DNA of 64,000 nt. Source: Labia minor (Eukaryota; Arthropoda; Insecta; Dermaptera; Spongiphoridae). A model generated the notes under the pieces. That model was not told the origin of the DNA. It worked only from the letters and a program-made list of their open reading frames with translations, and searched no databases. The position numbers were made by a program, and so were the translations under genes. Where the stretch lies: positions 636,001 to 700,000 of the forward strand of contig OY720350.1 in the NCBI GenBank assembly GCA_963082975.1. Direction: 5' to 3'. Within the stretch, counting starts at the first letter, position 1; each line of letters begins with the position of its first letter. Of this stretch, positions 26,101-58,058 are shown one piece after another.

Positions 26101-26485
26101 AAAACAAAATCAATCAATCAATCAATCAGTATATGAATTGATAATTGGGGTCGACAGCTACAACCTACAACTTAAAAGATATGAAATTGTCTTTATTTGG
26201 AGTCACGGACTTCAGATGCAGATAAAATAGAATTCTTATAATAATTTGTCGAATAATAGAATGGAAGGTGGTGTATCTATTAGGAGGAAAAAATATTGGT
26301 GGGGTGAGAAAAAATGGATGGAAGAGCAAGGAAGGGGTGAGCGAACAATATAGGAGGGCATGTAAGAGAGATGGGAGAGAATACGAGTTGGATGGATTTG
26401 AAGAAATATATGTGTTTGCTGCGGCAAAGAACTTTCGAGTTCCGAGTAGCTTGCTTCAGAGATAGATAGACAATTGATTAATTAT

Positions 26486-26523
<38 letters not shown>

Positions 26524-26528
26524 TAAAT

Positions 26529-26563
<35 letters not shown>

Positions 26564-26899
26564 TTAATATTAATATTAATAATAATAATTTAATAATAAT
26601 AATAATAATACAAAAGAGTGAAACAATTCTTGGGTAACAAATTGAAATTAATCGAATGTTTAAACTTTATTTTAATATGAGTTGTTGTTGTTACTATTTT
26701 AGTTTGTCATTTACTTGGGAGTGGAGTAGCTGCAATTTTCGGCCCTCAATCAGCTCAAACGGCCAGTCACGTGCAAAGTATTTGCGACACAATGGAAATA
26801 CCACACTTGGAAACGCGATGGGATTATCGACTACGTAGAGAGAGTTGCCTTGTAAATCTTTACCCTCATCCCACTACACTTAGTAAGGTATATTATACA

Positions 26900-26939
<40 letters not shown>

Positions 26940-28502: not shown

Positions 28503-28539
<37 letters not shown>

Positions 28540-31500: not shown

Positions 31501-34500
31501 TAATATTTTGTTTTTTTTTTTGTTTTTTTAATTAATTAACTAATTAAGCCTAGATATGTTTTATTCATTTAAAAAACAAAAAAACAAAACAAATGTGTTT
31601 ACTCTCTACTATTACGTATATTTACATTATTACCTACATAATCATTATTTAATATGAATTCATTAATTATCATTAATTCAATCTATGGATGTGCCATTAT
31701 TATTAATATTATTATTATTATTATTATTATTATTGAGATTTAAAAGTCAGTCAAATTTTTTCATCTATCCAAAAATTTTCCTGGGGGAGGGAATTCACCC
31801 GAATCCACAAAAACCTTTATTTTATTATAGTATCTCGCCAGACATAAATAGTATTGCAATCACGAAAATTTTCGATATTGAAATTTTGATGTTTTTATAC
31901 GTTTTGAATGTTCCTGAATCATTTTCACGAACGTTGAGAAAAATGTCTTTGTGTATGTATGTATGTATGTATGTGTGTGTGTGTGTAGTCAAGATTATGC
32001 AAAAATAGTTTGAGCTAGAATAATGAAATTTGCTAAACGGGCATTATTCAAAATTTGTAGTTTTCTGTCAACTTTAGCTCAACCGGAAGAGGGTCATTAC
32101 CTACAAAATGTTTTGATTTTTTATTCCTCTAAAGCTAAAGTAACCGTAAAAATAAAGCTATACGGTATGTTTGATATTTTTTCACATGATTAAAATTTGT
32201 ATAAAACTGCTATAATATAGAAAGAATTTCAGTTTGATTGAATTAAGTATAAAGTTAAAATCCTAGTAAATAAGTTGACCTGTGGCCAAGTCCGAACCGA
32301 CCAACGGTTTGAAGTAAATTAATTTCCAGCTAGAGAAACAATTTCAAATAATTTGAATATATCTATTAATGTAATAAAAAAACAGATATGGATATAACAT
32401 AAATATTTTTAATTTTATTTTATTTATAATATATATGTAAGACCAGGCTGAGACGTCATGAATGGCTGAATGACGTCATATAATTTTAAATTAAGAAAAA
32501 AACTAATAAAGATGATTTTTCTCGAGTATAAAACCAATGCAAAGTGAATGATTCGTGATAATATGTAAAAAATCTCCTCATGTGAAATTTGGTATGAAAA
32601 TAACCTTTCCCTTCCTATCGTCGATCGCTAATACTACCACTTCCGATTTCCGGATTTGCACCAAAAGTGGATCCATTCATCCCACTGATGCATTAAGTAA
32701 ATATACCAAATTTCATCAAAATCCGTTCAGCCTTTCAAACTGTACACATCTATACGGACGGACGGACGGACGGACGGACCGACAGACATCATGCTAAAAA
32801 TTCTTTTTTCTGTTAAGAAAATGCATGATTCGTGGAGATATATAAAAATCTCCATGTGAAATTTGGTGTGAAAACAATACCTCTCTTAGTATCGTCGGTC
32901 GGTAAAAAAGAGAGGAAAATGAAATGGAATATTTTCTTTTTCTGGATAATAATATTATATTTTTAATATGTCGAGAACATTATAATCATATTCTTTGAAA
33001 TCATTTTTCTTTTTCCCTTTCCCCTGTTTTAATTCATCTACCTACCTACCTACCTACCTGAAATACACACCTATTTTATTTCTAAATGAGAATTCACACA
33101 TATTTATTTAATTTATGATGATGATAACGATAATAAAGTTTTTTTTTATGAAATTTATATAGTAATTCGGTTTACAAATTTAATTAGGAATGTTAACAGG
33201 AAAATAATTATCAATCGCACACACATTTCAACTTTCAGAAACTTTTCTTCTTCTTCTTCTTCTTCTTCTTCTTATTATTATTATTATTATTATTTCTATA
33301 ATTAAAAACTATTAAAAAAAAATATTTTAAGTATTTGTATGTATTGTTTTAAATAAAATAAAAATTTAATCAAAGTCATATTAAATTTAATTATGTATAG
33401 TAAGTATTATATTATAAGAAAAAAATGATATGAACAATTTACTTAATAAATAAATATGTTATGAGTATTTATGTACAAACATATACGAGATTCATATGAA
33501 TTCATAGATTTTAATGAGAATAAATACCATTAAATAAAAAAATAGTTTTTAATAGGAGAAAAAATATATATATATATATATTGATGTTGTTGATGTTGTT
33601 TTAGGCCTCTTTTAAAACAGATTAAGAATTCAGCGGAATCCCATATTGTATTGGATTGTTCAACAGAACGTATCTATGACGTATTGAAACAGGCACAACA
33701 GATTGGCATGATGTCTGATTATCATAGTTATTTGATAACCTCCCTTGATTTGCATAGCGTCGATTTGGATGAATTTAAATATGGCGGTACAAATATTACA
33801 GCATTTCGGCTTGTTGACCCAGAAAAAACTGAATTGCAAAAAGTAGTTAAAGATTGGATCTACGGCGAGTTACGCTTCGGTAGAAAATTGGATTTTGGAC
33901 CAACACGGGTAAGAAAAAATTGTTTTGTTTTTTTTTTGTTTTTTTGTTAAATTATGTGATTAAGTATAGTTATTTTTATTTATTTATTTTTTAAATTAAA
34001 TAATTATAGAATAAGAGTTAAAAATCAAACCAGTTAATAATATAAAAAATACATGAAACTTACTTATTACTAGTAGATATAATATATTATACGTATAAGA
34101 TAGAAATGTATAGATAATTTACTTACTTAAAGATAGATAGATAGATAGATATCTTTTTATTTTATTATCATTTTAAAAAAAAAAAAATTTGAAACATCAA
34201 AATAATAAAAAGATTGAATGGGTTAAATTTATAATCCAAATATTATCTAATTGATTGTAATTGAATGATAGAGAAAAAGAAAAAATCTGGGCTGTCTAAT
34301 GGTAGCCTTTAAAGATTTATCACCTGTTTCGAATGGTAAACTTCTCGGAAGAACGACGCTTACCCTTACAAAAGAACCCACAGCTAAGAAATAAGCATAA
34401 AATAGATAATCAATCATTCATTCACTCACTCACTCAGTGAAGAAACCACTCGACACAAATATCCTATATAAACGATTGAAAAGAAAAGCTAAAGAAATTA

Positions 34501-37278
34501 AATTATAGTTTTTTAAATAAAAAAATCTATAACAAGTTTGATATTTGTCAAAAAAATGTTTGTCCCATTCACGTAAACTCTATGTACATATTCATCAATC
34601 CTGAGCCAGCTCCATCCAACTCCTATTCTCCCCCAAGTTCTCCTTCCGGAGAATGGCCGAGACTGCATAACCTCCATGCATCTCCAGACATAGTTAGTTA
34701 GTTAGGGTTATAGAATCGAGAGAGAAGGTTGCGATTGGCAGGGCACGTGGCTAGAATGGGAGAGGAAGACCAAGGACAAGGACCAAGGAGTTGGTTGAAT
34801 AGTAGGGACACTTGGACAAATCAAGTTGCTTTGTAAGAAATAAAAAGTGGGACAAGAACAACACGAAGAAGAAGAAGAAGAAGATTTTAGGATGATTGTG
34901 ATGACACATTCTAATATTTCATCGGAGAAAAGTTCTTATCCTTAATAGACGATTTTTAGAAAGAGTTAAAAGTTAACATTCAAGATTTTGTATTAAAAAA
35001 CATTTAACTTTTTTGTAAAAAAAAAAAACAAAATTAGTAATATGCCATATAAGTACATCAAATGAATAAAATAAATAGAATTTAGGGAAAAAGAAGAAAA
35101 AAATAAATATTAAAGTTTTTTTTGTAGGTACATAATGTACATACATGTACGTAGTATATTCCATTTACATTCTTTTACACATTGTCTATACAATTTTTTA
35201 TTTTTTTTTTTTTTTTTTTTTTTTTTAGAAAAAAAAAATATAATTTAAGAATTATTCATATTAAATTTAATTTTTACTTTTTTTATTATGTAATTGTCAA
35301 AATTATTTAAGCATCATTATTACAAATATAATAATAATTAAATCTTTAAAAGATAATAAAATAAATATTATATTTATCTATGTCTCTTTGTGTAATCTAA
35401 TTTTATTTAACTGATCAAAACATACAACAAATAATTATTAATATTATTATTATTATTATTATTTAATTTAGATAATAAATGAAAAAATAATAAAATAAAT
35501 TCAATTATTATATATACAGTACGTACTTATATATATATAATTTTAATTTAATTTTAATTTTTTTTTTTAAATGCTTATCTTAAAAAATAAAGGAGAATCT
35601 CACATATATTAAGGTAAGAAAATATTTATTAATTATTTTTAATTTTATAATGAGATTTGAATCTCAATGTTTCTCGGTGCCATTAGGTATTTTAGTGGTT
35701 TTCTGGATATGATAGCAAAATTAAATGACTATAGTCGGGGAGAGTAAGAGTTGGTGCATGAGCGGTGCACCCCCACCAGTCAGGAGAGGCGGGGCTTTTA
35801 AAATAATAATACAAAAAAAAAACAACAACACAGATTGAAAATTAACTACTTAAAAGAGAATAAAATAATAAAAAGAGAAAGATACAATAAAGTAGCGTAG
35901 AGTAGTTTGGTAGGGGCAAGCGCGGGAACTGCTTGGCCGAGGGTGGAGGGTGCACCAACTCTTACCTCCTCGACTATAGGAGAGATGAGATACGCCTTCA
36001 ATTTGTTGTCTGTTTGGAAAAGAAACCTTGCTTATTCATTCAATTTAAAATACTAATTATCTTATCGCTGATGATCACATAGCTTAAGATTAACATTAAG
36101 AATCCATCGCATAATTTTTGCATTTTCCTTTTGAAAATGATCCCAAACAACAAAATACAAATCTTATTAAACTACATAGAATTAACCTTTCAATTCAATT
36201 TTTCATAATTCAAGGATTCACGGATATCTATATTCTATATTATTATATTCTATATATTGTAACGTTTAAAATTTCGCGCTCGAGCTTCCCTCTGGTGACG
36301 AGTGACTGTCGATTGTTGCCAAGCTCACTTTTTTTTTCTGCGTTGCCGATGTCTCTGTTAAGCTTATCGTTTTCTCTCTTTTGAATTTAGAAATTTAAAA
36401 TATCTTATCATCTCTAAAGTATATATATATGAATCACTGCTCAAATTCAAAAATTATCTTTTGTCACGGTGAGTAAAAGAAATAAAAAAATAACTAATTG
36501 TAAACATATATATATATTATTAATAATTTACTACTAATTTGTTCATTCTTTATTTTAGTTTTTTATAATAAGTATAAGTCTTTGTATTATGTTGCCATCC
36601 CGGCCGAATCCTGGTCAATAAATAAATTATTTAATTCATCATCAAATTTTATTTTCATTTTTCCTTGTTATTTACAATATTATATGAAAATTCAATTTAT
36701 AATTGATAATCAATTGTAATTATAATATTCTATCTAAATATTTAATGTATACTCTACTTTAATTAGCAATTATATGTACCTCCTATGTAGGGCTTCAAAA
36801 TTTGGGCAGTTTTCAAGTTAAATTTTCGAGAAAAATTCATAGCCTAGTGCCTACTAGGTATATGTAATATTTTACCTGTTTAGAGTGTGGGATTTATTTA
36901 TTATAGAAATGAATAAAAGTAAAAAATGAAAAAAGAAAAAAGAAAGAATGATTCGTTTTTATTATAATATAATAATAATAATGTGTTTTAAAAAAGAACA
37001 AATCATAAAAGATGAGTTGATTGGTTGGTTGTTTGTTTGTTTAGACGGAGACAGCTTTGATGTATGATGCCGTTCACCTGTTTGCTAAAGCGCTACACGA
37101 TCTCGATTCATCTCAACGGATTGATATCAAACCTTTACGATGCGATGCTGTAGACACCTGGCCACATGGAAATAGTCTAATCAACTATATGCGAGTTGTA
37201 AGTTGTTTTTCTTACTATTATTTACTACTACACTACTTCACTAATGTTTTATTATACCTTTGTAACATTAATTTACAA

Positions 37279-37309
<31 letters not shown>

Positions 37310-37339
37310 ACAAATTGTTATATTTCTTTCTAATTTCTA

Positions 37340-37387
<48 letters not shown>

Positions 37388-40300
37388 GAGGAACAAGAAG
37401 AAGATGAAGAAGAAAATGAAGAAGTAGAAGATTATATTGATTTTTGTAATTTATTGATTTATTTATTTATTTACATATTTAGGGGAAATGTACCAGTAGT
37501 TGACACTTGTTCATTTAATATCGGATAATAAGACTTATCTATCTATCTAAATATTTCTAATATGAAAGTAATTCCTTCTCTATGGAAGATGTGTAAATAG
37601 AAAAGTTTGGAGTCACCGTCTGAGTGTGTGTGTAGTCGGCTGTCGGCACAACATTTATTTTTTATAGAATCGAAAAAATGGATACTTTAATATTTTACTC
37701 TTCAAATGCTTAAAGAGACAAGACACTTTTTTTATTTTTTTTTTTTTATTATTATTATTGACATCAATATTAAATATTATTAATTGAATGTCCATATTAT
37801 CTAGATTACCGAGAAGATAATAATACTATAAGATCTTAACTTTAAGTGGCATTAGGGCTCTTATGTCTTCAAGTACTAATGCAAAGGGTGAAGTAATAAT
37901 ATTAAGTTAGTTAGTTAGTCAGCTTACCACACACTGTACACAAAAATGCTTAATTTTTTTTACATTATCATTTCATTAGTAGTTCTAGTAGTTGACATCG
38001 ATATCATCATTCATTTATTGGTAGAAGATGATTCCAATAATTAACATAATTGTAAAATCACTGCACTTTAAAGTAAAAGGAATGTCTTACTGTTTTAATG
38101 AAAACGAATGATTGAGAAAGAAATACAGAAGATAGAAGAAGTCTGTATGATATAATTATATGGAAAAATATGTATTAACCATTCGATTAATTTAAATTAT
38201 CAGCCTAATGCCTAATGTTTCTAAAATAGAATCTGTAGAGAGGATTGACAAGAAATTTTTAATATGGATTGGGCATTTGATATTATTAATAATACTGAAA
38301 GTAATAATACTATTTACAACCAAAATAGATAGTGATAGTTTACAGATAAATTCTTTTCCAGAAACCTCAAAACCAAACAAACATGCATAGCCCTTTTAAA
38401 AAACTATTACAAATGGTAGCAGTACCATAATATTAAATTGCTAAAGAAAATTTTGAGCAGAGATAATAATACAAAAAAGAACTGCTGCTAGACTAAAACA
38501 AAAGCTGGAAGAAAAATTAAAAAAAAAACATAATAAGAGAAAGCTAAAAATCAATGAAAGAAAAAAGGAAAAGCAACCCATTAAGAATTGAATCTCTTTT
38601 TATGTACATTCTTATTTGTATGTACTTAATATTTTTTCAATATTTTTTTTTTTTTTATAAATTAGTTAGTAAAAGTAAAAACTATAAAAATAATTTAGAT
38701 AAATAAATGATTGAAAAAAAAGAAAAAAAAAAGATAATTCAAATGATATGTTTTTATGAATAATGTTACCTATGTAAATTTTATTTACATGAAGATGCAA
38801 ATTTTCCATTGCTTAATACAATTTAATAAAATAATTTACAATTAAACACTCGGTAAAAGTTTAAAGTTGATTAATGTTTTTTATTTTTTTTTGCATCATC
38901 CTTGGTGATAATTTTAAATAAATAAAGCATTTGTTCTCTTTTATTTATGTATTTATTTTATTTTATTATTAGGTGGAAATGCGTGGATTGACAGGTGTAA
39001 TAAAATTTGATCATGAAGGATTTCGAAGTAATTTTGAATTGGATGTTGTGGAATTAAATAAGGATGGTTTAAAAAAAATTGGCACATGGAACTCAACGGA
39101 AGGGATCAATTTTACACGCGGATACAGTGAAGTACTTACACAAATTGTTGAATCACTACAAAATCGGACTTTTGTTGTAACCACCATTTTAGTAAGTACC
39201 CATCCATTTATGTAATATCTTTATTAGGTAATTATTTTTATTTTATTTATATGTATACCAATCGTGTAATCGCTTTATAATATTACATTTTCTTTTATTT
39301 TTTAACTTACATTCTTCAAATTTTAGTGTAAATTGTGTAAATTTAGTCATACAATATTCAATTTCATACAATTATCTTTTCAAAATAAATAAAAAATAAA
39401 CTTTTTAAAGATTAAAAAAAAAAATTTGTTTGCATTCATGTTGTAAGGTAAAAGCCATAAAAATTCTAATGTTTCATTAGAAATTTTTAATTTTTGTCTA
39501 TTAATCTTTTTTTGAGTTTTTATTTATTCTGATGATTGATGACTATAGAAATAGTTTTTTTTAGAATGTTACAATTATTCAATCTTTTCACAATAATAAA
39601 ATATTATAAATTGTGCGTTGTGACGTTTCTTTAGTATTATTAAAGAAAAATCGATTTATGACTTGCTAAAAAATCAATGTTACAAAAATAATGATAAATT
39701 TTAATTAATAAAATCTCAAAAAATAATGAATGTATTTTTATATCTGCACCCCTATCAAAATTTAACGCTTAGCTTGTCCGCACAATTTTTGGCGCTGATG
39801 TATTTGAGTTGTTTGTTTGTTTTTTTCATTTTATTGACCTCATTTAGACTTTCATTACACTATTAAAAGAATATGTATTCATTAAATCATAAAAGTTAAG
39901 TAAATATGGCGCGTTGACCACCTAAAAGTTCGGACACTTACTTACGACTATAACGACTATACAAATTACAATTAGCTACCATCCAACCATCCTGTTTGTA
40001 TTTGTTTTGTTTTTTTTTTTTAAATATAATGATTTAATGATTAATAATTAAATAACATCTCGTATATGAATTTTGTTTTGATTGCAGAGTTCACCGTATT
40101 GTATGCGCAAAGATTCAAGTGAAAAACTAACAGGCAATGCCCAATTTGAAGGTTATAGCATTGATTTGATACATGAAATATCTAAAATTCTTGGTTTCAA
40201 TTATACATTTAAATTAGTGCCTGATGGACGTTATGGGTCAATTAATCGGGAAACAAAAGAATGGGATGGCATGATAAAAGAACTACTCGATCAGGTTTGT

Positions 40301-41634
40301 AAATTTTTATTTTTAATTTTTAACCTTTATTTCGTTAATATTTCTTGATTTTAATAAACTCCTTTTAAATATTATAATAGTAGTAGTATATATAGGTATA
40401 TATTTTTTTTTTTAAAATACAAAAAAAGCCTTTACATGAGAGTGGATTTCAGAATAAACAAGAATTATTTTTTTATTTTTATATGAACAAAAAGTGCTGT
40501 TGAAGAAGAGTTAAAAATCAAAGTCAGCTTTTTTTAAATAGCAAACTGTAGAATTTTATAAAAAAAAAATACATTTTTATTTAATTTATTTTTTTAACAG
40601 AAGTGTTTTTATTTCCTTCTTTTTATTATAATTATTTTTTTTTATAATATTTTGACTATTAATTCGATTTGGTCAAAACTCGCCAATATACGAGTATATA
40701 CGAGTATAATTCACATAACCCCTTTGATGTAGGCAACCATCATCCTTTTTATTCATATTTTATTAACCCATTCACAAACGATGTGTTTATTATCTGGTCA
40801 CCCTGAGGGGGGTTCTGATTCTTTTAATAGTTTTAATTCCATAAAAATATAAAATGATAAACTTTTATTAAAAATTTATTAAAAATTAATTTCTTCACAT
40901 ATTTTAATTATACAATAATAATACCAATGGATTATTTATAAAAAAAAGAACAGAAATTATTTTTTGAATGAAATTTTCATCTTAGTTTTAAATGATTTTA
41001 ATAAATTTTGAATTGATATAAATACTATATAACTAAGGCAGGCATTGAATTGATGGTTGACCTTAGAGCTGAATTTGCGATATTCCCTTTTACTATTCTA
41101 TTCTATGTTAGATGAAAAACAAAAAAGATTCTTAAATTTCAAAAATCATTCAACAACTATCATTTAACATTAATATAGTAGAGATATTTAATATCTTATT
41201 TTTTAAAATTAACAGACAAATATATTGAAATTTATCATTAAATTAACTAAAATTTTCTATTTCAAACTAAAACAAAAGTTGATAAAGATTAAAAATAAAA
41301 TTTTGAAAAATAGGCATATGGTTTTATATACTATCATTATTCTAATACTAGCTTCACAACTAGAAAGGGATATCTGCCTGTTCGGCCCCTCGAAGTAATA
41401 CATAGTATTTGGTTGAAAGTTTTAATTCGTTTTAATTCAATTCGTATATATAAAAATATTCATATCTTTTTGTGTCCTTATTTAAAATATAGTGAAAAGA
41501 TCTCGTCCACGACGGGGTTCAGTGTATTCAGTTCAACTCCTTCTTTGTTGATCACTTTTGAGTAGGATATTTTCTTTTTTTCGACTATTCAATTGTTTAT
41601 ATACCATATTTTATCTTATCTTATTATACTAGCA

Positions 41635-41682
<48 letters not shown>

Positions 41683-43734
41683 TATCTTATTATGCTAACT
41701 AAAATTGTATATATGTTTGTTTGTATAGCCATGGGTTCTCAAAAACCGCTCTAACGATTTTTTTGAAATGCACACTAGATATAGTATTTATAAAGAAAAA
41801 TTAAGTTTTATTGATCACATCGCTGGAAAAATACATCTTCATTAGTTTTTTCTTAATTTAAATTTATATATGGATGACGTCACAAATGAAATCCATATTG
41901 AAATTTGACTCCCGCCTTTTTTTAAAGGATATATATTGTATTAATTTTTTTATAATATATTTAAAATATTTTAAAATTGTTTATTTAATTTCGAAATAAA
42001 ATTAAAAACATATATTTTAATAATATTTTATAATTATAAATTACGATATATATTTATCATTCTTCCAATAAAAAAAAAATATTCATGCACTTAGAAACAT
42101 ACCTAATAATACATATTTATGTATTATTGAGGACCCCAAGTTCCATTCATTTTAATCAGATTGATGCAATGATGCAACATTTAATAATTGTAATAAATAA
42201 TTAAAAAATTGTATATCAGCTCGGTGTCCCAAGTATTAATATTACCAGCCAAACCCAATATAATAATGAATTATTTTTTTTTAACTTAATTACCGAGCCA
42301 AGGCTCGGGGTCCCGGTACTATATCTTATGCATATTTATTTGTATTTTTGAATTATTAAACCGCTCTAAGGATTTTCTTGAAATTCACACTATAGTTAAT
42401 TTTTATAAAGAAAAATCAATCTGTATTGCTTTCAGCCTCAGGAAAAATCATCTTTGTTAGTTTTTTCTTAATTTTAACTGGTTGCAAAAGAGACGGGAAA
42501 TTCAAAAAGTCACGGACTTATTGACCTGCCCTCGTACATACTGTCATAGGAGGATCTATGACAGTGTTTCCCAATCATTTTTGTGCCATGCCCCACCTAA
42601 GCCCTTCTAAAATTCTTATGCCCCCTATGTAACATATATATATATATAATTTTTTAATATTAAAACGGTTAAACTCGTGTTGAGTGAATTTTCGAATTGC
42701 CCCCCTTTACAATCCAATTGCATCCCTATGGGGCGTTAGCGTTATATATAGGTATATAATTTGAATTTTTATTATATTATTCTAAGGTAATGGCAAATAT
42801 GTATAGGGGGACAGAATTGCAAAACTTTTACTTTCAATTAACATTCATTCCGAATTATATTTCTTAAATCTTCTTTAATCTTTTTTATTTTTTTATTATT
42901 AAAACGTTGGAATTATTTTAATTAATAAATGTGAATTTTCAAATTAAAGTGTTTTATATTTGTTTATGGCTTTAATAAGAATCGGGAACACCTCAGGGGT
43001 GGCTGTCAGTTAATAAACAGACACCTGTGTGAATGTATTAATAAAATTCCAGGAACAAAGGAGAAGGTGTGTTTCCTTCTATGATATACATTATACACTA
43101 TTACGCGCGTAGATACGGTAGATAGAAAGTACATACCTACAATTGTCTGGTGTAAATAAATAGTGAATGGTGAACTGTGTAGATGATGGTATTAATAATA
43201 TTTCTAATATGAATTTATTGGATTATTTTATATTCCGTTCATTATACGTACAATAACGCAAATTAAAATTAAAAATATCGAATCTATCGAATCTATTTTT
43301 AAAAATAAAATATAGAAATACAATGTGAATGAAATGTAATATAATTGTAATATAAATAAAAAGTGAAATGTAATAAATTTGTTTTTAGAAGGCTGACCTG
43401 GCAATTGGTGACCTTACAATCACTTATGACAGAGAACAAGCAGTGGACTTTACAATGCCATTTATGAATCTTGGTATGTTTTATTATAATTACAATTTCT
43501 TAAATACACACCACTATAGCACTAAAATCATTCATTTAATTAATATTAATATTTTTGTTTTGCTTTATCCAATAGGAATCAGTATATTGTATCGGAAACC
43601 GATTAAACAACCTCCAAATCTTTTCTCATTCTTATCGCCACTCTCACTTGACGTGTGGATTTATATGGCCACCGCTTACCTTGGCGTCTCTGTACTACTC
43701 TTTATTCTCGCCAGGTAAAATTATACACACCTCT

Positions 43735-43774
<40 letters not shown>

Positions 43775-46700
43775 ACCCATTTTTTTTTCTTTTTCTTTTT
43801 TGAAAAAAGAAAAACAAAATCGATAATTTCCAACTTAAATGTTATTTATAAATAAATTTAAAATTTTAATTTAATAATTATCAATATAGCAGCTTTATAT
43901 AGTAGTCATTTAAGAATTTAATCATATTTTTTTCAGAAAAGATTTATTCGTATAATTAGCATTACAATTTAAAAATTTGGTTTTCTTTAAAAACATCCTA
44001 AAATACAATAAAAAAAACAAACATACATTTAAGTGAAATGTCCACAATAATTTTCACCGTTTTCGTGATTGTTCAAGGTACTGATTTGAATTCCAATAAT
44101 TAACTAATTATAATAATTAGTTTCTTGAAGAAATAACCCTTTGGTAGCTCTTTGGCCAAACCACCACCCCTACAAGGTGACTCTCTCTTCTTATCAAGTT
44201 AAACTTGAAGTCTCCACCTTTCGGGTCAGCACAATCATTCCGAAGAACATTGACCATCAGAGTTCTTTTATGCATTTGACCATTCTCCTTGCTAGTGTCG
44301 AATCCACTTCGAGGTCTTTATTGCTGCAGTACAATTTATGTTTGGGAGTGAATGTGTATAGGCCATTTAGGAGATTTAGTAAAGTGTGTTGTTTTCGTTG
44401 GAATTTTTGAAATTTTAAAAATATCTAATAGCGCTCATTTGACTAACAGATTGGGTTACTGCTTGCTGACTTAAAAAAACACCTCATTTTATCATTACCA
44501 TCGGCTGAAAAGGAAAAAGTATAATCTATCTATTGAGGTAGATTCTACACATATGTAGATCGTTATTCATCTTCATAGAACTTTTGTTTACCACAAAAAA
44601 CAAAAACAAAACAAAACAAACACAATTGTTAACTTAGTCAATTCTTATTCTACTCTACTTTTTCAGTTTCTTAATTCTACATACAATTTTGCATTTTGTC
44701 TCGGTTTGACAAAGGTCAGAAAATGTACAATTTCCGTGCCAAGATCCGAAATACAACTTTTCTTCCATTGCTTGTAGCATCAAATGTTACACGGACGGCA
44801 AATGTTCCACTTCTCTAGAAATTTGTTTGTTTACAAAAGACGTAGGTTTGTCTTTTTGCACCGCACCGTATCTTATATTTGTCTTGGTTCATTTTTATAG
44901 TGGGTTTTCATTGTGGTCTCCTAGATTCTCAGAATGTTTGATTTCCCCCGGTAGAACGAACATTTGAATTATATTTAGAAAACTATCTCACCATTTTGAG
45001 ACCCAATGTCACACGAGTGTAGGTATGCATTGCGAGAACACAGAGAGTTATTATTCACCAAATTGTTTCTATGCTCTATCAGAACTATCCACACACGAAT
45101 CATTTCTCTAACGTTATTCCTTGATCAAGAGGACACATTCCTCTCTCCTTTCCTTTTCTTATTAGAAAAGAATGCATGTTCAGCATTCTCGATTGCATTC
45201 TATCTGATCAACAATTCATTAATTCAAGTGTCGTCAAGTGTAAACTTATTAGAGAAATGTTGTGAAGCTCTCATTATTCTACATATTCTACATTCTAAGG
45301 AATAATCTAATTTTTATTGATTCATCCCACACACTTTGGACTACAAACGACTGTCGTCAAAATATTTTACTAATTGATGTCATTTGATCTCATTTGCTTC
45401 TCTGATGATAATAATAATCCCTTTTATTTTGTAATGAGAACACATTTCAATTTTATGATTTGTCCAGTGTTGGAAGATTGTTGGAAGATTGTTTGGTTAA
45501 ATATCCACGTAATGAATTTTGCTCTACAGAACCAATGCAATTGTCTCAACAAAACCATCTTCTACATTTAGTACATTTTGAAACTTGAATAGCCGTACAT
45601 TATAAATTTTATTTCTCAGTACCGATAATCAATTATTATTCTTTGAATATACAATGGACCAAGTCAAATACATTTTTTTTTTTTGACATTTAGTAGAGCT
45701 ACGATTGCAGCACGCACATTCAATTATAATAATCTTCGAGCCGTGTGTGTGTGTGTGTGTGTGTGTGTGGTGGGTGATATGATATGATAATTGAATCAGG
45801 TTTACACCGTACGAGTGGCAAAATCCGCATCCGTGCAATCCAGAGCCCGACCACCTCGAGAACCAATTCACTTTACTCAACTGCATGTGGTTCGCGATTG
45901 GCTCGCTCATGCAGCAGGGTTGCGACTTTTTGCCCAAGTAAGCAACACTCGCTTGTATCATTCTCTCTATTGGATGTTTTGTGTGAATGTGGGTGTGTTG
46001 CTTGTTTCTCGGTGTGTGTGTGTGCGCCTGTGTGGCCCTTAGATTCAGCCCCTACGAGTGGGATAATCCACATCCGTGTAACGACGAGCCAGACGTTTTG
46101 GAGAACCAGTTCAGTCTCCTCAACAGTTTATGGTTCACCATCGGCTCATTAATGCAACAGGGGTCGGATATTGCACCCAAGTAAGTAATACACTCCCTCC
46201 CACCCCCCCTCCCCCTCCCCCCCTCACACACTCACTCACTCACTCACTCAATCATATACATACACACTTTGTTAAATATCACTGCTGCTTTTGCTGATTG
46301 CTTGTTTCACTCCCTCACATATTAGCTTTTGTTTTTGTTTTTGTTTTTGTTTTTCAGATCTCATTAACCTTTCAATAAATTTTTCACATCAATTTATAAA
46401 ATAAAAGTAATTCATTTAGATTCATTTTAAAGTTTAGAATAAAGTTGGAAATATAAAAATAATATTGTAATAGAAGCTCAATTATCTGGTTAAATTTACA
46501 TAAGTAAATATCGTTAAAAATTACAATCTAAATTCTAATTATTATATTTATTATAAAAGAATAAGTAATCTTTATTTCTGTAGTAAATGGTATTTTACTT
46601 ATGTGTAGTACGGTATATTCATGGATTTTTAATTCCAAGGAAAATAATTGATAATTAATAAAGATTATCTATATTTAATTAAAATGTATATTTGTAGTTA

Positions 46701-49700: not shown

Positions 49701-52700
49701 AATTTTAAGAAATTTTTAAATAAATATTACATATATTATATAGAACATTATTTGTTTCTTTTAGATATGTAAATTACATAAAAGATTGTAGAATTTTCAG
49801 TTAAGGGAAAAATTATCCATTTGGATATAAAACCAACATTTCTGAAAAGAAAAACATAATTTATTTCTTAAATGTTAGTTTTATCTCCAAATGGATAATT
49901 TTTCATTTAATAGAAAACTAACTAGGATAAGCTTCTTTATAAAAATTATCTAATGAATAAATAAATAAATAAATCTATTAATGTAATAAAAAAACAGATA
50001 TGGATACATAAATAATAAATATAAACATTTTTAATTTTATTTTATTTATAATATATATGTAAGACCAGGCTGTGACGTCATGAATGACTGGATGACGTCA
50101 TATCATTTTAAATTAAGAAAAAACTAATGAAAATGATTTTTCCCGAGGATAAAACCAATGCTAAGTGCATGATTTGTGGAGATATGTAAAAAAATCTCAT
50201 GTGAAATTTGGTGTGAAAATAACTCTTCCCTTCCTATCGTCGATCGCTAATTAATACTACCACTTCCGGTTTCCGGATTTGCACCAAAAGTTGATCCATT
50301 CATCATACTGATGCATTAAGTAAATAAACGAAATTTCATCAAAATACGTTGAGCCGTTCAAGCTGTACATATCATCTATACGGACGGACAGACATCATGC
50401 TAAAAATACTTTTTTTCTGTTAATATGTTAAAATGCATGATTCGTGGAGCTAATAAGTAAAAATCTCCACATGTGAAATTTGGTGTTAAAACAATACTTA
50501 CCTCCCTTACTATCGTCGGTCGGTAAAAATTATATTAAATCTTTATAAATTTATTATTATTATTATTATTATTCCTTTTTTGTAAATATGTAAATATATA
50601 TATATATTATTATATTTTTATTTCTAATACTTATGTTTGTTTGTTTGTTATTTTAGAGCGGTATCTACACGTATGGTAGCTGGCATGTGGTGGTTTTTCA
50701 CTCTCATCATGATCTCATCTTATACGGCCAATCTAGCTGCTTTTCTTACTGTCGAACGGATGGACTCACCAATTGAAAGTGCAGAGGATCTTGCCAAACA
50801 AACTAAAATTAAATATGGGGCACTAGGAGGAGGTTCTACTGCCTCCTTTTTTCGGGTGAGTCATGGCAATTACAATATATATATATATATTACTAATTAC
50901 ATGTGTAATCATAACTATTTCTATTTCAAATATAAATGTTTGGGTAATTGTCAATTTGGTCAATTATTTTTGTTCACATTCTACACACATAAACCTTTTT
51001 TTTTCTCTCTCTCTCTTTATATATATGAAGTTGAAAAGTGTTGAAAACTATTTATCTTAAAGTTATTGTGATTGATCTCATTTTTGTTTTTTGTTTTTCT
51101 CATTGGTCAGACAATTTTAATGGGATATTTGAACTATAGGTTTTAAATAATTTTATTTTATATCAAAATTTCTTTATTATAGCACAAGTATGTTATAATA
51201 AATTTGATATTAATTAACTAAAATATATTTTATAATTAATAATTGGAATCGTTTAAATAAATATTGATTTCAATAATTTTTATTTCTAAGTATTTAATTC
51301 GAAAATATATAGAATTTATTATTCAAACTACATTATATTGGCTTAAACACAGAAATATACATCTAACTCCCATGGAGGGGTTAAAACTAGACATCTACGC
51401 AGTTAAAATATGAATAATGGTAATTGGTGGAATAAGTTTGTCAGAGAGAGGTGTAAAAGGTAAAAGGTGGACTGTGTTGTAGACTTTGAGAGAAACTACA
51501 GACTGGGAATTGGGAGTCGGTTGGAATGAGAGTAGAGAGGCTTGAGTCTAGAATGTGTCCATGAAGAGCACAAATTCCTTTGCTCTACTAGACTCTCATT
51601 TATAGGAGGAGAAGGAAAGGACAATTTCGCTTAAATAGTCTGCCTTACTATGAAATGACACATTACATGATTCATAATAATAGACCTACTCTATTTGAAT
51701 ATTAAACTTTAATACTATTTTAGCAATATCTAATAAAAACAAACAAAAAAAAAAGAAAAAAAGAAAAAAAAAATCAAGCAGACGAAGCTCGAAACGTTTT
51801 AAAAATTTAATATAAATAAAATGACGTTGAAATTATTTTTATTTTTATTTATATTTTAATTATTACTTACTAATTACTTACTAACTACTTATTATTTAAT
51901 TTTTATAATTTAACGTTGAACAATTGTAGAGCAAAAAAACAATGTTTTAAATTAATTCATAAAATGAAACCGAACAAAAAAAAAAAAAAAAAACAAAAAA
52001 AAAACGAATCTAATGTGACTAGCCATGCCAGTGGAGTTGGGGGAGTTGGAATACCTCTCATCTCAACAAACCAGAAAGTATCCAAAAGTTAACAGATCTG
52101 AAGGAGATTTAAAAGATTTAAAAGGTATCAACAAGACTCTTGTCTTAGAGGAGGGAGATGATCTAACGAACCACAAGTGAAAAAGAATACAATTCAAATT
52201 TATTTATTATTTATTTAATATTGGCTAGAAATTCTTTAGATTGTTCAACTCTCAACAGAGTCAAATATTTCCTCAATTCATTACTGCACAAAAGAGTGAG
52301 TGTCCTGAAGTATAAAATTTAAAATAAATACTATAGTAGAAGAGAGACAAGTGTAGAAAATGTGACAACGATATTATTTATAACTTTCTCTGAATCTGAA
52401 AGCATATTTAGTGATACATACGTACGTACGTACGTAACTAACTTGTTACTCTACAAGTGTAAACTAGCACCACTGGATTATCCTGGTTGAGAATTCAAAC
52501 ACCATCCATTCTAATTAGATTGTAAATTAAAACTGATAAGGCGCAATCAATCGACTATAGAAATTTCCCTAATCCATAACAACAAACAATTAAAGACTTG
52601 AATTGAAAAACATGATGATATATTCATCAATTAATATAAAAAAAATATCTGTAAAGCTCAATCTATTCTCGGGGCAGAGAAAGGCTAGTCTCCAGAAAAA

Positions 52701-54063
52701 TTAGTTGAATCATCAAGGAACTTGCCATACCATTCAATATATCATAATTAGATTAGAGCATCCCCATCATAAGCCAATAAATACTTTTTCCAACCTGTAA
52801 CATAATCACACATATAATATTCCTTACCCTCCTCGTCCTCTCTGTGATCTACGCGGCTAAATGAAAGTTTCTTTCATTTAAGCACAATACTATCAATGAT
52901 GTTAAACTGGGAATTATCGTGGTGGTAGAATGTCATAGAATTAGTATATAGAGATAGACGATCAATCAGAGTACTCGAGTATTATATGCATTTCTAATGG
53001 GTTTCTAATTTTTGAAGGATGCTCGTCAGGAAGACTCAATTGGGGTTTAGTTTAAAAGGACACATCTCTTTCTTGTATGGTTCACCAGCCAATGTGGAAT
53101 AACATTAATTGTATGCATTTCTAGAAAGGCATCCTGGTTTCTCACATATTTGTGTGCTCTTTTTTATAAACTGTCTTACTTATAGAATATTTCTAGGATT
53201 TAAAAGTCTCCCCTTCAATGGCAATTTATAGTTATCAATGTAGATTGATTCTTTTTATTTAATCTAACTTAATTAGAATTTTGTGTGTATTTTTAAAAAT
53301 TTTTTTTTTTTTTTTTTTCATTTTGAAATTTTAAAAAAAAAATAAATACTTATAAAATATTATTTTATTATATAATATTTTTGTTAGTTGTTAATATGTG
53401 GTACAAATCCTTTTGTAAAACGTTAATGTTCATGTGTTGTGTTGTTGTGTTGTTGTGTCCAGGATTCCAATTTCTCGACATATCAACGAATGTGGTCATT
53501 TATGGAGTCGGCTCGTCCTTCCGTATTCGCCTCCTCCAATACAGAGGGTGTGGAGAGGGTTGTCAAGGGCAAGGGCTCCTATGCTTTTCTTATGGAATCT
53601 ACCAGTATTGAATATGTCATTGAACGTAATTGTCAATTGACCCAAGTCGGTGGTTTACTCGATAGTAAAGGCTACGGCATTGCTATGCCACCAAGTGAGT
53701 CATATCTCTACAACACCTTTTCTTCTTCTTCTTCTTCATCTTCTTCTTCTTACATTTACATTTATATAAACACGTATTGATTCATTGATGTTTTTATTAT
53801 AGATTCACCGTATCGGACGGCGATTAGTGGTGCAGTGTTGAAGCTTCAAGAAGAAGGGAAGCTTCATATTCTGAAGACGCGATGGTGGAAGGAGAAACGG
53901 GGCGGGGGCTCATGCAGAGTGAGACCAAATAAAATACTAGTAAACACCGGACACAGATGAACCGACTCTCCATACTCATAAGTACTCGTAGTGGTAGCTG
54001 ATTGTAGGCTCTCTTTCTATATATAAATATTTACTCTTATTTCCCTTTCACAATCTCTCTCTC

Positions 54064-57200: not shown

Positions 57201-58058
57201 AGGGAATGTTTTTTAGATAATCGGTGTTTGATAACCAAGAATCGATGTTAGAATTTTGTCTCCAATGGGCGGGGGGGTGGGAGGTGATTTTTGACTAATA
57301 TAATAATTGTATATACGAGATATAATATAATATAAGAAGTATATTGGGTGAATATTTTGTATATCCTCTCTATTCTATTCGAAATAATAATAAATATTAT
57401 TTTGTATTTATTATAAAGACATTTCTCATGGCTAGAAGAACACAACAAATTGACAGACATTTGTTTTGTTTTTTTTGTTTTTTTTTTTTTTTTTTTTTTG
57501 TCTATTCTATACTTTTGGATCATCAGTATCAGTATCATCATCATCATCATCATCATCATTTATTCAAAATAGTAATAGTATTCTTAATGTTTAATAAGGG
57601 AATGATATATTTATTGTTTTTTGTTTGTGCAGGATGACACTTCGAAATCGTCTTCAGCTGCCAATGAGCTTGGTTTGGCAAATGTTGGCGGCGTATTTGT
57701 CGTGTTGCTGGGCGGCATGGGTGTGGCTTGTGTGATCGCCGTGTGCGAGTTCGTCTGGAAGTCGAGGAAGGTGGCCGTGGATGAACGGGTGAGCTGCAGC
57801 AACGGCGGCAGTAGCAACGGCTCAGGGATCGGTGTGGTTGGTGGGGGCGGAATGTCGGGGTCCCATCACCATCATCATCATCATCATCATCAACATCAAC
57901 ATCACCAACATCATCATGCCACCAATCGAATGAGAAGTCATGAATCAACGGTGGCAGCCGCAGCAGCGGTATCCACGCCAAATAAATCGGCTAGCCATTC
58001 ACCCACTGCAGCCTCACTGCTATCCGCCGATATTCCCGTCCCTGATATTGTACTCTAA
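23012..58058 (+). CDS. Kainate-type ionotropic glutamate receptor subunit, 15-exon gene (span)
   Basis: Joining 15 coding exons (with one of two alternatives for exon 11) gives 2,814 nt and 937 residues with every splice phase consistent. The product would be a glutamate-gated cation channel subunit of the kainate class in the neuronal plasma membrane. It has a signal peptide (about 1-25), amino-terminal domain (about 28-400), S1 half of the ligand-binding domain (about 420-545), M1 (about 549-567), re-entrant pore loop (about 595-613), M3 with SYTANLAAF (635-643), S2 (about 650-795), M4 (about 816-836) and a cytosolic tail with poly-His (874-891). Ligand contacts expected from the family are visible: Arg508, the 674-675 Ser-Thr and Glu725. 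It resembles insect KaiR1D/Grik receptors as I remember them; orthology is inferred, not computed. Introns range from 102 bp to about 6.4 kb. Confidence 0.93.
23434..23760 (-). repeat. Inverted sibling of the 17.1-17.4 kb LTR-like repeat (intron 1)
   Basis: On the minus strand this matches about 17090-17403 with moderate divergence, ending TTTAGGCCTTACAA. It occupies roughly half of the 764-bp intron 1. Confidence 0.6.
23873..24028 (+). CDS. Receptor exon 2: amino-terminal domain start
   Basis: Acceptor TTTTAG at 23867-23872, donor GAG|GTAAAC. It encodes [20 protein letters not shown] and then a stretch ending [11 protein letters not shown], the first strand and helix of the bilobed (LIVBP-like) amino-terminal domain. 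Enters phase 1 and leaves phase 1. A CAA microsatellite follows directly in the intron. Confidence 0.93.
24029..26702. other. Receptor intron 2
   Basis: 2,674 bp. I see T and A homopolymers, CTTT and GCTT microsatellites (24881-24908, 25747-25778), AAT runs (26490-26523, 26538-26611) and a LINE-tail fragment at 26280-26465. No hidden exon recognised. Confidence 0.6.
26280..26465 (+). pseudogene. LINE C-terminal fragment (intron 2)
   Basis: The open plus-strand frame ends with [15 protein letters not shown] and a stop, resembling the VAKHFRV ending of the fragment at 14772-14906. The upstream part is basic and lacks a clear domain. It is a probable 5'-truncated LINE tail. Confidence 0.35.
26703..26887 (+). 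CDS. Receptor exon 3: amino-terminal domain
   Basis: Acceptor ATTTTAG, donor AAG|GTATAT. It encodes [20 protein letters not shown] and onward to PHPTTLSK, including the FGPQSA loop typical of iGluR amino-terminal domains. Enters phase 1, leaves phase 0. In-frame with exon 4 after an intron of only 129 bp that consists largely of ATT repeats. Confidence 0.94.
27017..27174 (+). CDS. Receptor exon 4: amino-terminal domain
   Basis: Acceptor AATTGTAG, donor CACAG|GTAATA. It encodes [20 protein letters not shown] and ends GEGNDH(R). The [12 protein letters not shown] strand is characteristic of the second half of lobe 1 in kainate receptors. Leaves phase 2. Confidence 0.94.
29002..29661 (+). repeat. 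Dispersed repeat family copy D (near full length)
   Basis: About 660 bp from AAATAAGTTGACCTGTGGCC to CTATCGTCGGTGGGTAAAA. It carries two TGACGTCA sites (29202-29209, 29222-29229) 20 bp apart. It also carries two versions of a module that begins TGCATGATTCGTGG and ends with a CTATCGTCG string. No coding capacity is seen; a non-autonomous element is likely. Confidence 0.8.
30131..30707 (+). repeat. Dispersed repeat family copy E
   Basis: Same start as copy D and end CTATCGTCGGTCAGTAAAAA, with small internal losses. The first TGCATGATTCGTGG of the bipartite module is gone. Its two CRE-like sites are degraded (TGATGTCA and TGACGTCC), unlike those in copies D and G. A GGAC/GGAT tract lies at 30570-30596. 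Confidence 0.8.
32268..32909 (+). repeat. Dispersed repeat family copy F (near full length)
   Basis: Start AAATAAGTTGACCTGTGGCC, end GTATCGTCGGTCGGTAAAAA. One intact TGACGTCA (32471-32478) and one altered site remain. A (GGAC)n expansion is at 32757-32779. Confidence 0.8.
33605..33908 (+). CDS. Receptor exon 5: amino-terminal domain lobe 2
   Basis: Acceptor GTTTTAG, donor CGG|GTAAGA. It starts [20 protein letters not shown] and ends KLDFGPTR. The HIVLDCS strand, the [20 protein letters not shown] segment and the FRLVDP string are the familiar lobe-2 pattern of kainate receptor amino-terminal domains. Enters phase 2, leaves phase 0; 304 bp. Confidence 0.95.
34720..34836 (+). pseudogene. LINE reverse-transcriptase-end fragment
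   Basis: A 39-codon plus-strand frame reads [18 protein letters not shown] and then [16 protein letters not shown] before a stop. The [11 protein letters not shown] motif is the widespread end of LINE reverse-transcriptase ORFs. The RSW...RDTW pattern is shared with 14772-14906, so both belong to related elements. Confidence 0.65.
35730..35978. mobile_element. MITE with about 28-bp inverted termini (TA target)
   Basis: The left end TATAGTCGGGGAGAGTAAGA continues GTTGGTGCA; the right end is the reverse complement with one gap and one change (TATAGTCGAGGAGGTAAGAG...). TA dinucleotides at both edges suit a Tc1/mariner-type target. The 245-bp body is non-coding, GC-richer than the intron, with an A-rich middle. 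Confidence 0.75.
36258..36676 (+). mobile_element. Probable solo LTR (419 bp)
   Basis: It begins TGTAACGTTTAAAATTTCGC and ends TTATTTACA, flanked by ATAT on both sides (weak evidence, as the flank is AT-repeat). The 5' part is GC-richer than the intron. A TATATATATATGAATC stretch and an AATAAATAAATTATTT poly(A)-like stretch fall in LTR-like order. No internal region is attached. Confidence 0.45.
37045..37197 (+). CDS. Receptor exon 6: amino-terminal domain
   Basis: Acceptor TTGTTTAG, donor GTT|GTAAGT; phase 0 at both ends, 51 codons. It reads [20 protein letters not shown] and ends SLINYMRV. The [14 protein letters not shown] helix is highly typical of the family. Confidence 0.95.
37198..38972. 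other. Receptor intron 6
   Basis: 1.8 kb. It starts with a T run, then an AAT run (37341-37387). The segment 38190-38590 looks like a decayed coding remnant ending in a lysine-rich frame ([20 protein letters not shown] and onward), possibly a transposon relic; I cannot name it. Confidence 0.5.
38973..39191 (+). CDS. Receptor exon 7: end of amino-terminal domain, linker to S1
   Basis: Acceptor TTATTAG, donor TTA|GTAAGT; phase 0 both ends, 73 codons. It carries [20 protein letters not shown], then [17 protein letters not shown], and ends VVTTIL. The GLTG.IKFD and IGTWN strings are hallmarks of kainate receptors; TTIL leads into the first S1 strand. Confidence 0.95.
39192..40087. other. Receptor intron 7
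   Basis: 896 bp of AT-rich intron; nothing recognised. Confidence 0.6.
40088..40294 (+). CDS. Receptor exon 8: S1 ligand-binding segment
   Basis: Acceptor ATTGCAG, donor CAG|GTTTGT; phase 0, 69 codons. It starts [20 protein letters not shown] and continues through [20 protein letters not shown] to [12 protein letters not shown]. These are the S1 signature segments (FEGY.IDLI, WDGMI.ELL) that form one face of the glutamate pocket. Confidence 0.96.
40295..43388. other. Receptor intron 8
   Basis: 3.1 kb. It holds an (AT)n run (41638-41680) and two inverted fragments related to the middle of the dispersed family (about 41745-41890, with one TGACGTCA near 41875, and 42425-42475). It also has a lone mariner TIR (42500-42536) and a CAGTGTTTCCCAATCATTTT string at 42562 that resembles one end of a hAT element. 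No exon recognised. Confidence 0.55.
42500..42536. mobile_element. Solo mariner terminal inverted repeat
   Basis: TCACGGACTTATTGACCTGC continues CCTCGTA and is the reverse complement of the terminal repeat at 4684-4720 with few mismatches. The body of the element is missing. Confidence 0.65.
43389..43473 (+). CDS. Receptor exon 9: S1 with ligand-binding arginine
   Basis: Acceptor TTTTTAG, donor TTG|GTATGT. It encodes [20 protein letters not shown] followed by FTMPFMNLG. The Arg in YDREQ (residue 508) is the family's conserved contact to the glutamate alpha-carboxylate, and DLTIT precedes it as expected. Leaves phase 1; intron 9 is only 102 bp. Confidence 0.95.
43576..43714 (+). CDS. Receptor exon 10: end of S1 and transmembrane helix M1
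   Basis: Acceptor CAATAG, donor CCAG|GTAAAA, phases 1 to 2. It reads [20 protein letters not shown], then a [19 protein letters not shown] helix and ILAR. The strings ISILYRKP and the post-M1 ILAR are typical. A 36-nt CU tract (43737-43772) begins about 20 nt downstream of the donor, upstream of the alternative exon pair. Confidence 0.96.
43715..45799. other. Receptor intron 10, upstream of the alternative pore exons
   Basis: 2.1 kb. It starts with the CU tract and ends with a long (GT)n at 45742-45768, 31 nt before the exon 11a acceptor. Two open frames (44141-44410 and 45006-45305) have no recognisable domain and no plausible splice continuity with the receptor; decayed mobile-element coding is possible. 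Confidence 0.5.
45800..45937 (+). CDS. Receptor exon 11a: pore-loop exon, version a
   Basis: Acceptor TTGAATCAG (45791-45799), donor CCCAA|GTAAGC, phase 2 to phase 2, 138 bp. With the split codons it reads [20 protein letters not shown], then [17 protein letters not shown] and MQQGCDFLP(K). It encodes the M1-M2 linker and re-entrant pore loop. The Q/R site (residue 606) is Gln, codon CAG, and +4 is Asp (610), so a calcium-permeable, polyamine-sensitive pore is expected from family knowledge. The acceptor lacks a polypyrimidine tract; a (GT)n run lies upstream instead. It is one of a tandem pair with exon 11b, 105 bp downstream. Confidence 0.93.
46043..46180 (+). CDS. Receptor exon 11b: pore-loop exon, version b
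   Basis: Acceptor GGCCCTTAG (46034-46042), donor CCCAA|GTAAGT, phase 2 to phase 2, 138 bp, the same as 11a. It reads [20 protein letters not shown], then [17 protein letters not shown] and MQQGSDIAP(K). By my count 34 of 45 residues match 11a. The 11 differences include six near the pore: C/S, M/L, A/T, C/S, F/I and L/A. The Q/R site is Gln (codon CAA) and +4 is Asp, as in 11a. Its NSLWF...MQQGSD pattern looks closer to vertebrate kainate pores, and 11a closer to my memory of fly KaiR1D. Both copies are undamaged and splice-compatible, so this is a functional alternative, not a relic. Confidence 0.93.
48291..49141 (+). pseudogene. Decayed mariner transposase (cecropia-type relic)
   Basis: Plus-strand pieces read [20 protein letters not shown] with a downstream NRKRGKG, then [16 protein letters not shown] and [17 protein letters not shown] in other frames. 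The first catalytic Asp is replaced (ITGGEKW) and the second site reads HNNA. Many stops and frameshifts are present. The 3' end at about 49116-49141 (TTTTCTCGTCCCCCTAATA) looks like a terminal repeat; its partner on the left is absent, so the copy is 5'-truncated. Confidence 0.8.
49794..49917. repeat. 48-bp-arm hairpin (MITE or miRNA-like)
   Basis: Arms 49794-49841 and 49870-49917 match at 42 of 48 positions (core ATTATCCATTTGGA), with a 28-nt loop. At least one of the mismatches would be a G:U pair in RNA. It sits in the sense direction within the receptor transcript. It could be a tiny MITE or an intronic microRNA precursor. Confidence 0.6.
49973..50528 (+). repeat. Dispersed repeat family copy G (5'-truncated)
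   Basis: Starts at ATCTATTAATGTAATAAAAA and runs to CTATCGTCGGTCGGTAAAAA. Both TGACGTCA sites are intact (50073-50080 and 50093-50100, again 20 bp apart). It ends about 130 bp before exon 12. Confidence 0.8.
50657..50855 (+). CDS. Receptor exon 12: M3 and start of S2
   Basis: Acceptor TATTTTAG, donor CGG|GTGAGT, phase 2 to phase 0. It reads [20 protein letters not shown], then [20 protein letters not shown] and ends [22 protein letters not shown] is the invariant M3 gating motif; the Ser-Thr in GGGST (about 674-675) contacts glutamate in the family. It joins either 11a or 11b, since both leave AA in phase 2. Confidence 0.96.
50856..53462. other. Receptor intron 12
   Basis: 2.6 kb. Only simple repeats recognised, including an (ACGT)n run at 52418-52436. 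Several stretches between 51350 and 53200 are of moderate complexity without recognisable coding. Confidence 0.55.
53463..53694 (+). CDS. Receptor exon 13: S2 with ligand-binding glutamate
   Basis: Acceptor GTGTCCAG, donor CCAA|GTGAGT, phase 0 to phase 1. It reads [20 protein letters not shown], then a [17 protein letters not shown] stretch and [13 protein letters not shown]. The Glu in FLMEST (725) is the family's contact to the ligand amino group; KGYGIAMP is the hinge strand of S2. Confidence 0.96.
53803..53918 (+). CDS. Receptor exon 14: end of S2
   Basis: Acceptor ATTATAG, donor AGA|GTGAGA, phase 1 to phase 0. It reads [20 protein letters not shown] and then [19 protein letters not shown]. 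The preceding intron is 108 bp. If intron 14 is retained, translation adds 13 residues and stops at 53957-53959, losing M4. Confidence 0.95.
53919..57632. other. Receptor intron 14
   Basis: 3.7 kb. It opens with long CT runs (54050-54105, 54188-54221), a G run (54817-54832), a T run (55560-55584), the second copy of the 13.9-kb repeat (56119-56457) and a SINE-like tail (56904-56979). Open frames here carry no recognisable domain. Confidence 0.6.
56119..56457. repeat. Dispersed repeat, copy 2 (see 13907-14258)
   Basis: Direct copy of 13907-14258 with few substitutions and a shorter (CT)n run. It includes the pyrimidine-rich CTCCTTTGCAGATAGAGAG string that could act as a cryptic splice acceptor inside intron 14. 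Confidence 0.85.
57633..58058 (+). CDS. Receptor exon 15: M4 and cytosolic tail
   Basis: Acceptor TTTGTGCAG. It encodes [20 protein letters not shown], the hydrophobic M4 (about 816-836) and [16 protein letters not shown] Gly/Ser-rich stretch follows, then an 18-residue His/Gln tract (874-891) from CAT/CAC/CAA codons, an Ala/Ser/Pro-rich end and the final PDIVL before TAA. The last three residues fit a class II PDZ ligand. GC content is far above the surroundings. A strong donor-like CGG|GTGAGC lies at 57788/57789, right where the conserved part ends, so an alternative tail spliced to a downstream exon is possible. Confidence 0.92.
   Translation, partial: DDTSKSSSAANELGLANVGGVFVVLLGGMGVACVIAVCEFVWKSRKVAVDERVSCSNGGSSNGSGIGVVGGGGMSGSHHHHHHHHHQHQHHQHHHATNRMRSHESTVAAAAAVSTPNKSASHSPTAASLLSADIPVPDIVL

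Follow-up and report, generated by a model that had tools for sequence, protein, structure and literature searches.

A KaiR1D-type kainate receptor gene of the dermapteran Labia minor carries an ancient tandem duplicate of its pore exon, and very probably one of the two copies is, as a rule, spliced between the exons that encode the transmembrane segments M1 and M3. The gene lies in a window of 64,000 nucleotides (contig OY720350.1, positions 636,001 to 700,000), the whole stretch of DNA that was analyzed, and all coordinates below are window coordinates unless a genome locus is named. Calcium entry, polyamine block, and conductance of AMPA and kainate receptors are governed by the pore loop, which vertebrates vary through the editing of one base. 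According to the proposed mechanism, either exon a or exon b would be joined between the M1 exon and the M3 exon, and the two resulting subunits would be identical save for 11 residues of the M1-M2 linker and the pore loop. Labia minor itself would use both exons, one at a time.

Anatomy of the duplicate pore exons

The pair and its immediate surroundings consist of the following elements.

45743 to 45769, + strand: (GT)13.5 tract upstream of the exon a acceptor
45800 to 45937, + strand: pore exon a, encoding the M1-M2 linker and re-entrant pore loop, recognized by sequence, phase, and splice sites; its type also occurs in other insects, crustaceans, and a millipede
45938 to 46042, + strand: intron between exons a and b, 105 nt, GU-rich, without a yUnAy motif
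46043 to 46180, + strand: pore exon b, encoding the M1-M2 linker and re-entrant pore loop, recognized by sequence, phase, and splice sites; its type also occurs in other insects

The first-pass annotation had described two exons of 138 bp, 105 bp apart, running from phase 2 to phase 2 and flanked by intact splice sites, and every coordinate that we checked agrees. Introns follow the GT-AG rule, with acceptors GAATCAG/GTTTA (exon a) and CCCTTAG/ATTCA (exon b) and donors CCCAA/GTAAGC (exon a) and CCCAA/GTAAGT (exon b). An Arg codon begun at 43714 is completed by either exon, and either exon leaves the AA of a Lys codon that is completed at 50657. Comparison of the sequences also bore out the remaining details of that description: 34 of 45 residues are identical, the Gln of the Q/R site and the Asp at +4 are present in both exons, and the residues around the pore change from a to b as C/S, M/L, A/T, C/S, F/I, and L/A. 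At the nucleotide level the exons share 96 of 138 positions, and 25 of the 42 differences fall at third codon positions. Adjacent, equal in length, homologous, alike in phase, and intact at their splice sites, the two exons have the structure of a mutually exclusive homologous pair.

When the 15 coding exons were compared with the whole window by tblastn, exons a and b were the sole mutual matches (75.6% over 45 aa, E 1e-21), and the one further extra match covered 21 aa (E 0.04). Because only a and b find each other, their likeness is not due to chance. The 381-base stretch of the pore exons matches only its own place in the whole 604-Mb genome.

The gene around the pair

Apart from its pore exons, the gene is single-copy. 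It is read on the + strand with 14 coding exons per transcript, from 23873 to 58058, and all of its junctions are GT-AG, which leaves a role for the minor spliceosome unsupported. The other coding exons are these.

23873 to 43473, + strand: eight upstream coding exons for the amino-terminal domain and ligand-binding domain S1 (23873-24028, 26703-26887, 27017-27174, 33605-33908, 37045-37197, 38973-39191, 40088-40294, and 43389-43473)
43576 to 43714, + strand: upstream exon with pre-M1 and M1
50657 to 50855, + strand: downstream exon with M3
53463-53694, 53803-53918, and 57633-58058 (including the stop), + strand: three downstream coding exons for S2, M4, and the tail

With either pore exon and the 13 other coding exons, the model encodes 904 stop-free residues; it begins downstream of the 5' end that carries the signal peptide, which was not located. 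Among the matches listed, the nearest protein is from Schistocerca (91.9% over 816 aa), and the closest relatives are insect proteins that their sources name 'glutamate receptor ionotropic, kainate 2' or 'kainate-type subunit 1D'. These names place the gene with KaiR1D of Drosophila, although the matches listed include no Drosophila protein itself. A search of Rfam gave no match within the window.

Minor features of the window include a histidine- and glutamine-rich run in the cytoplasmic tail of the receptor (57866-57920). Similar short reading frames recur at 29427-29593, 30442-30652, and 32552-32856, probably as a dispersed repeat, and identical reading frames of 36 residues, 3.3 kb apart, form a direct repeat at 7746-7853 and 11057-11164.

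Use of the two exons in relatives

Three protein searches, from which we took the best 120 of 7949, 413, and 7053 matches, yielded 251 different proteins. These were classed by an identity of at least 35/46 to one pore exon or by a 44-residue form of exon a. Exon b alone was found in 95 proteins and exon a alone in 58, classes into which rows of a second and a third gene partly fall, and 68 proteins had neither. Both exons were present in 30 models (13, and 17 more with the 44-residue form of a), a count that is favored by the two-pore query used in one of the searches. In five same-species isoform pairs, which are annotation models taken as annotated, the partners match in length, and the 12 or 13 residues that distinguish them all fall inside the pore exon.

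Macrosteles (leafhopper), P0015 and P0061: 13 residues differ
Cloeon (mayfly), P0030 and P0063: 12 residues differ
Schistocerca gregaria (locust), P0038 and P0074: 12 residues differ
Schistocerca americana (locust), P0042 and P0089: 12 residues differ
Euwallacea fornicatus (bark beetle), P0054 and P0164: 13 residues differ

Three further entries hold an open reading frame of 751 to 863 residues on a contig of 2.8-3.6 kb with a single pore exon each (b in P0058 and P0070, a in P0159). Since the whole reading frame fits so short a contig, these are probably spliced transcripts. Two thrips pairs that we also compared as isoforms turned out to be different genes.

Two lines of evidence give good support to the proposal of the first-pass annotation that splicing lets the animal choose between two pore linings: the five annotated pairs and the retention of both exons in other insects. 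The same annotation had named a search for a second exon in related arthropods as a check, and other insects do keep both. Because related insects retain the two exons, a choice by splicing is the most likely reading.

Splicing signals

No 3' splice sites of the gene are poorer in U than those of exons a and b. The fraction of U in the last 20 intron bases is 0.40 for exon a and 0.35 for exon b, compared with 0.55-0.75 at the 13 other acceptors, while the total pyrimidine fraction is low at exon a (0.45) and ordinary at exon b (0.65). The branch-point motif yUnAy is absent from the last 102 nt before both pore acceptors and present at 12 of the 13 others; the constitutive acceptor at 43389 likewise lacks it. 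Tracts rich in GU adjoin the acceptors of both pore exons, and a (CTCA)n tract lies at 46223-46254. Given acceptors poor in U and without a branch-point motif in that interval, our best guess is that the choice between a and b is probably made by regulated recognition of the 3' splice site, perhaps through the GU-rich tracts beside the two acceptors.

Other routes to exclusion did not hold. The reading frame cannot enforce it, because transcripts with both exons and transcripts with neither remain in frame; strict mutual exclusivity is for the same reason a candidate reading. An intron too short to be spliced is ruled out by constitutive introns of 102 and 108 nt in the same gene. The 105-nt intron contains no AG, but we dropped this as an indication of a distant branch point, since the constitutive 108-nt intron is free of AG too.

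Alternative explanations

Tandem duplicates often decay, and one copy might be the unused relic of a recent exon duplication. We consider this most improbable: splice sites and frame are intact in exon a and in exon b, other insects retain both types, and the divergence between the copies (NG86) combines a dN of 0.20 with a dS that is undefined, being too large to estimate. Because of this combination, the exons fit an old pair under purifying selection, neither a fresh nor a decaying copy. Quite unlikely, too, is that exon a is a cassette added to a constitutive exon b, so that transcripts contain b only or a and b together. The latter would encode subunits with two pore loops in series, perhaps dominant-negative or the products of noise. 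Inclusion of both exons does stay in frame, the 30 of 251 best-matching proteins with both exons speak for it and against exclusivity, and three moth pairs, each from one species (Spodoptera litura P0025/P0087 and P0024/P0079; Cydia amplana P0032/P0112), consist of a both-exon and a b-only model that differ solely by a 44-residue a insert. Against it stand the a-only isoforms of equal length in the five same-species pairs and the 58 a-only proteins, a set that includes some rows of other genes. The five pairs, together with the three single-exon entries, speak for exclusive use of a or b in relatives, and the 30 both-exon models speak against it.

A choice of one exon at a time could also be enforced by competing RNA pairing, with a site downstream of exon b pairing with GU-rich sites upstream of each exon, an arrangement modeled on the docking and selector systems of the Dscam type. 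Pairing of the upstream intron (its last 200 nt) with the downstream intron (its first 300 nt) scored -69.4, compared with -51.6 (sd 5.3) for shuffled sequences, none of 100 of which scored as low, and the (GT)n and (CTCA)n tracts lie at 45743-45769 and 46223-46254. Simple repeats inflate such scores, however, and pairing was at chance level between the middle and downstream introns (26 of 100 shuffles as low) and between the upstream and middle introns (21 of 100). We regard this form of enforcement as unlikely, and retain regulated 3' splice-site recognition as the preferred account of how one exon is chosen.

What the exons change in the pore

Residues that distinguish the two exons are stable across relatives. 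Among 39 distinct a-like sequences, position 28 of the exon is C in 37, position 41 is C in 38, and position 44 is L in all 39; among 46 distinct b-like sequences, the same positions are S in 45, S in 42, and A in 38. Position 41 lies three residues past the Q/R site, which is Q in all 46 b-like sequences. In the available text of one study, Ca2+ permeability and polyamine block involve Q586 and D/E590 (PMC6307864), and in that of another KaiR1D assembles as homotetramers (PMC11188076).

In the window the Q/R site does not differ between the two forms. Because Q and D are kept in both exons, calcium should permeate either form, with the difference between the two lying in subtler filter properties; the switch should thus adjust the filter and leave calcium entry in place. 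With Q at the Q/R site and D at +4, both would also be sensitive to polyamines. Differences in conductance, block, or gating would arise from the changes C/S at +3, F/I at +5, and L/A at +6 and from A/T in the pore helix. In Hymenoptera the exchange of exons reaches the Q/R site itself, because exon a encodes R (LMRQG in the nine a rows among the matches listed, P0007-P0010, P0012, P0103, P0123, P0171, and P0172, with five distinct sequences) and exon b encodes Q.

Relation to known systems

The closest parallel is the gene NALCN, whose alternative pore exons 15a/15b and 31a/31b are described in the available text of Senatore et al. (2013, PMC3557258). There, as in the window, the alternative exons lie in tandem, cover the re-entrant pore loop, and swap one selectivity filter for another. 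They are conserved over wide animal groups and were duplicated separately at two sites, a further likeness to the arthropod pore exons. NALCN is a four-domain cation leak channel and not a ligand-gated receptor, and its filter change involves a charged residue (E/K), whereas the exons of the window exchange C/S, F/I, and L/A around an unchanged Q and D. The matches listed for the window gene are glutamate receptors; it would work like NALCN without being a member of that channel type.

Within the ionotropic glutamate receptors, the available text of PMC8257547 describes the flip/flop exons of AMPA receptors, which are mutually exclusive tandem exons too. Unlike the pore exons, however, they are 115 nt long, encode the end of the ligand-binding domain, and affect gating and not the pore (PMC8257547). 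Editing at the Q/R site of GluA2, GluK1, and GluK2 changes the same pore loop post-transcriptionally (PMC8257547), but it alters one base, whereas the window gene would exchange a whole exon by splicing with Q in both versions.

Among the matches listed from the open-access literature, with subscription papers mostly outside, we found no description of alternative pore exons in a glutamate receptor. The main text of a study of tandem duplicated exons in human and fly, in the part available, does not mention kainate, AMPA, or glutamate receptors (PMC9741552). The pair is unremarked in that literature yet already present in database isoforms, and is in that sense not unseen. Alternative selectivity-filter exons are known from NALCN; what would be new here is their occurrence in the glutamate receptor family. 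If whole exons are indeed exchanged, arthropod nervous systems and muscles would possess a separate, genome-encoded tuning of synaptic calcium, and the choice of pore exon would bear on the polyamine toxins that block such receptors.

Origin of the pair and other pore cassettes

A gene tree of 57 rows, built by a quick search from M3 onward with the pore left out, set apart a second insect gene (15 rows, SH-aLRT 98), a spider group (5 rows, 100), a third gene (5 rows, 93), and a crustacean group (12 rows, 83). The window gene fell among insect KaiR1D rows that were not resolved as one clade, and a millipede and two ostracod rows were loosely placed. A second tree, of 60 chosen pore exons and 46 columns, recovered an a-type group of 24 rows (96/91) with insects, decapods, an isopod, a stomatopod, a barnacle, the millipede, and the second gene. 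The spider pair (4 rows, 99/93) and the cassettes of the third gene (7 rows, 92/88) each grouped with themselves.

The simplest reading of these patterns would be one a/b duplication before the split of insects and crustaceans and before the second gene arose, with at least two independent duplications later. Several features run counter to a single early event. Exons of type b form no single clade in the 46-column tree, the b exon of Anopheles stands beside the a clade, and a first exon of an ostracod looks b-like; a crab pair also groups with itself (94/85), and the millipede exon is about as close to a (38/46) as to b (36/46). No crustacean b exon of the insect KaiR1D kind appeared among the matches listed, from searches whose queries included no b exon of crustaceans' own. 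Two pore segments in series were found in proteins of an ostracod, a shrimp, a crab, and an amphipod.

The third gene of the Labia minor genome has two cassettes, 28 kb apart and upstream of an M3 exon at 41858456.

C5:41807817-41808074 (L034, L031): third-gene cassette 1, M1 plus pore, with splice sites; FLRQGSGLNPK, with R at the Q/R site and G at +4
C5:41836187-41836483 (L036, L032): third-gene cassette 2, M1 plus pore, with splice sites; LMQQGSDLNPR, with Q at the Q/R site and D at +4

Seven loci of the genome have a strong M3 match; two of these have two pore cassettes, four have one, and in one none was found.

A broader reading, to which we give slightly less than even odds, is also conceivable: arthropod kainate receptors may carry exchangeable, separately evolved pore cassettes that would be the splicing counterpart of vertebrate Q/R editing. 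The a/b pair would predate the split of insects and crustaceans (perhaps also of millipedes) and the duplication of KaiR1D, and spiders and the third gene would have duplicated the pore independently. The residue at the Q/R site would be switched in Hymenoptera (R in a, Q in b), in spiders (R and Q), and in the third gene (R with G at +4 against Q with D at +4), and some transcripts with both cassettes may make two-pore subunits. Should the pore segment indeed have been duplicated repeatedly and independently, it would offer a clear example of splicing that evolved convergently in a single channel family.

Two kainate-type loci with a single pore, C6:24189059-24189199 (L004, L027) and C10:24170521-24170658 (L005, L028), have between them an a-like pore, in which the Q/R site is G, and a b-like pore of the WHN form. 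They may be gene copies that each retain one of the two alternative exons, a kinship that their M3 exons did not settle. Among the third-gene proteins of other arthropods that were listed (P0195-P0249), most have two M1-plus-pore cassettes one after the other; the search started from a double model, which biased the list, so these models say little on usage. If real, such proteins would be subunits with two pores in series. The Clastoptera protein P0211, which UniRef lists without a contig and which may stem from a cDNA, also has two cassettes in series. The spider relatives P0129, P0191, and P0213 combine an a-like pore whose Q/R site reads RR (RRGCDFLP) with a second form, QQGSDILP, and in the model of Caerostris darwini the repeated unit also takes in the end of S1 and M1.
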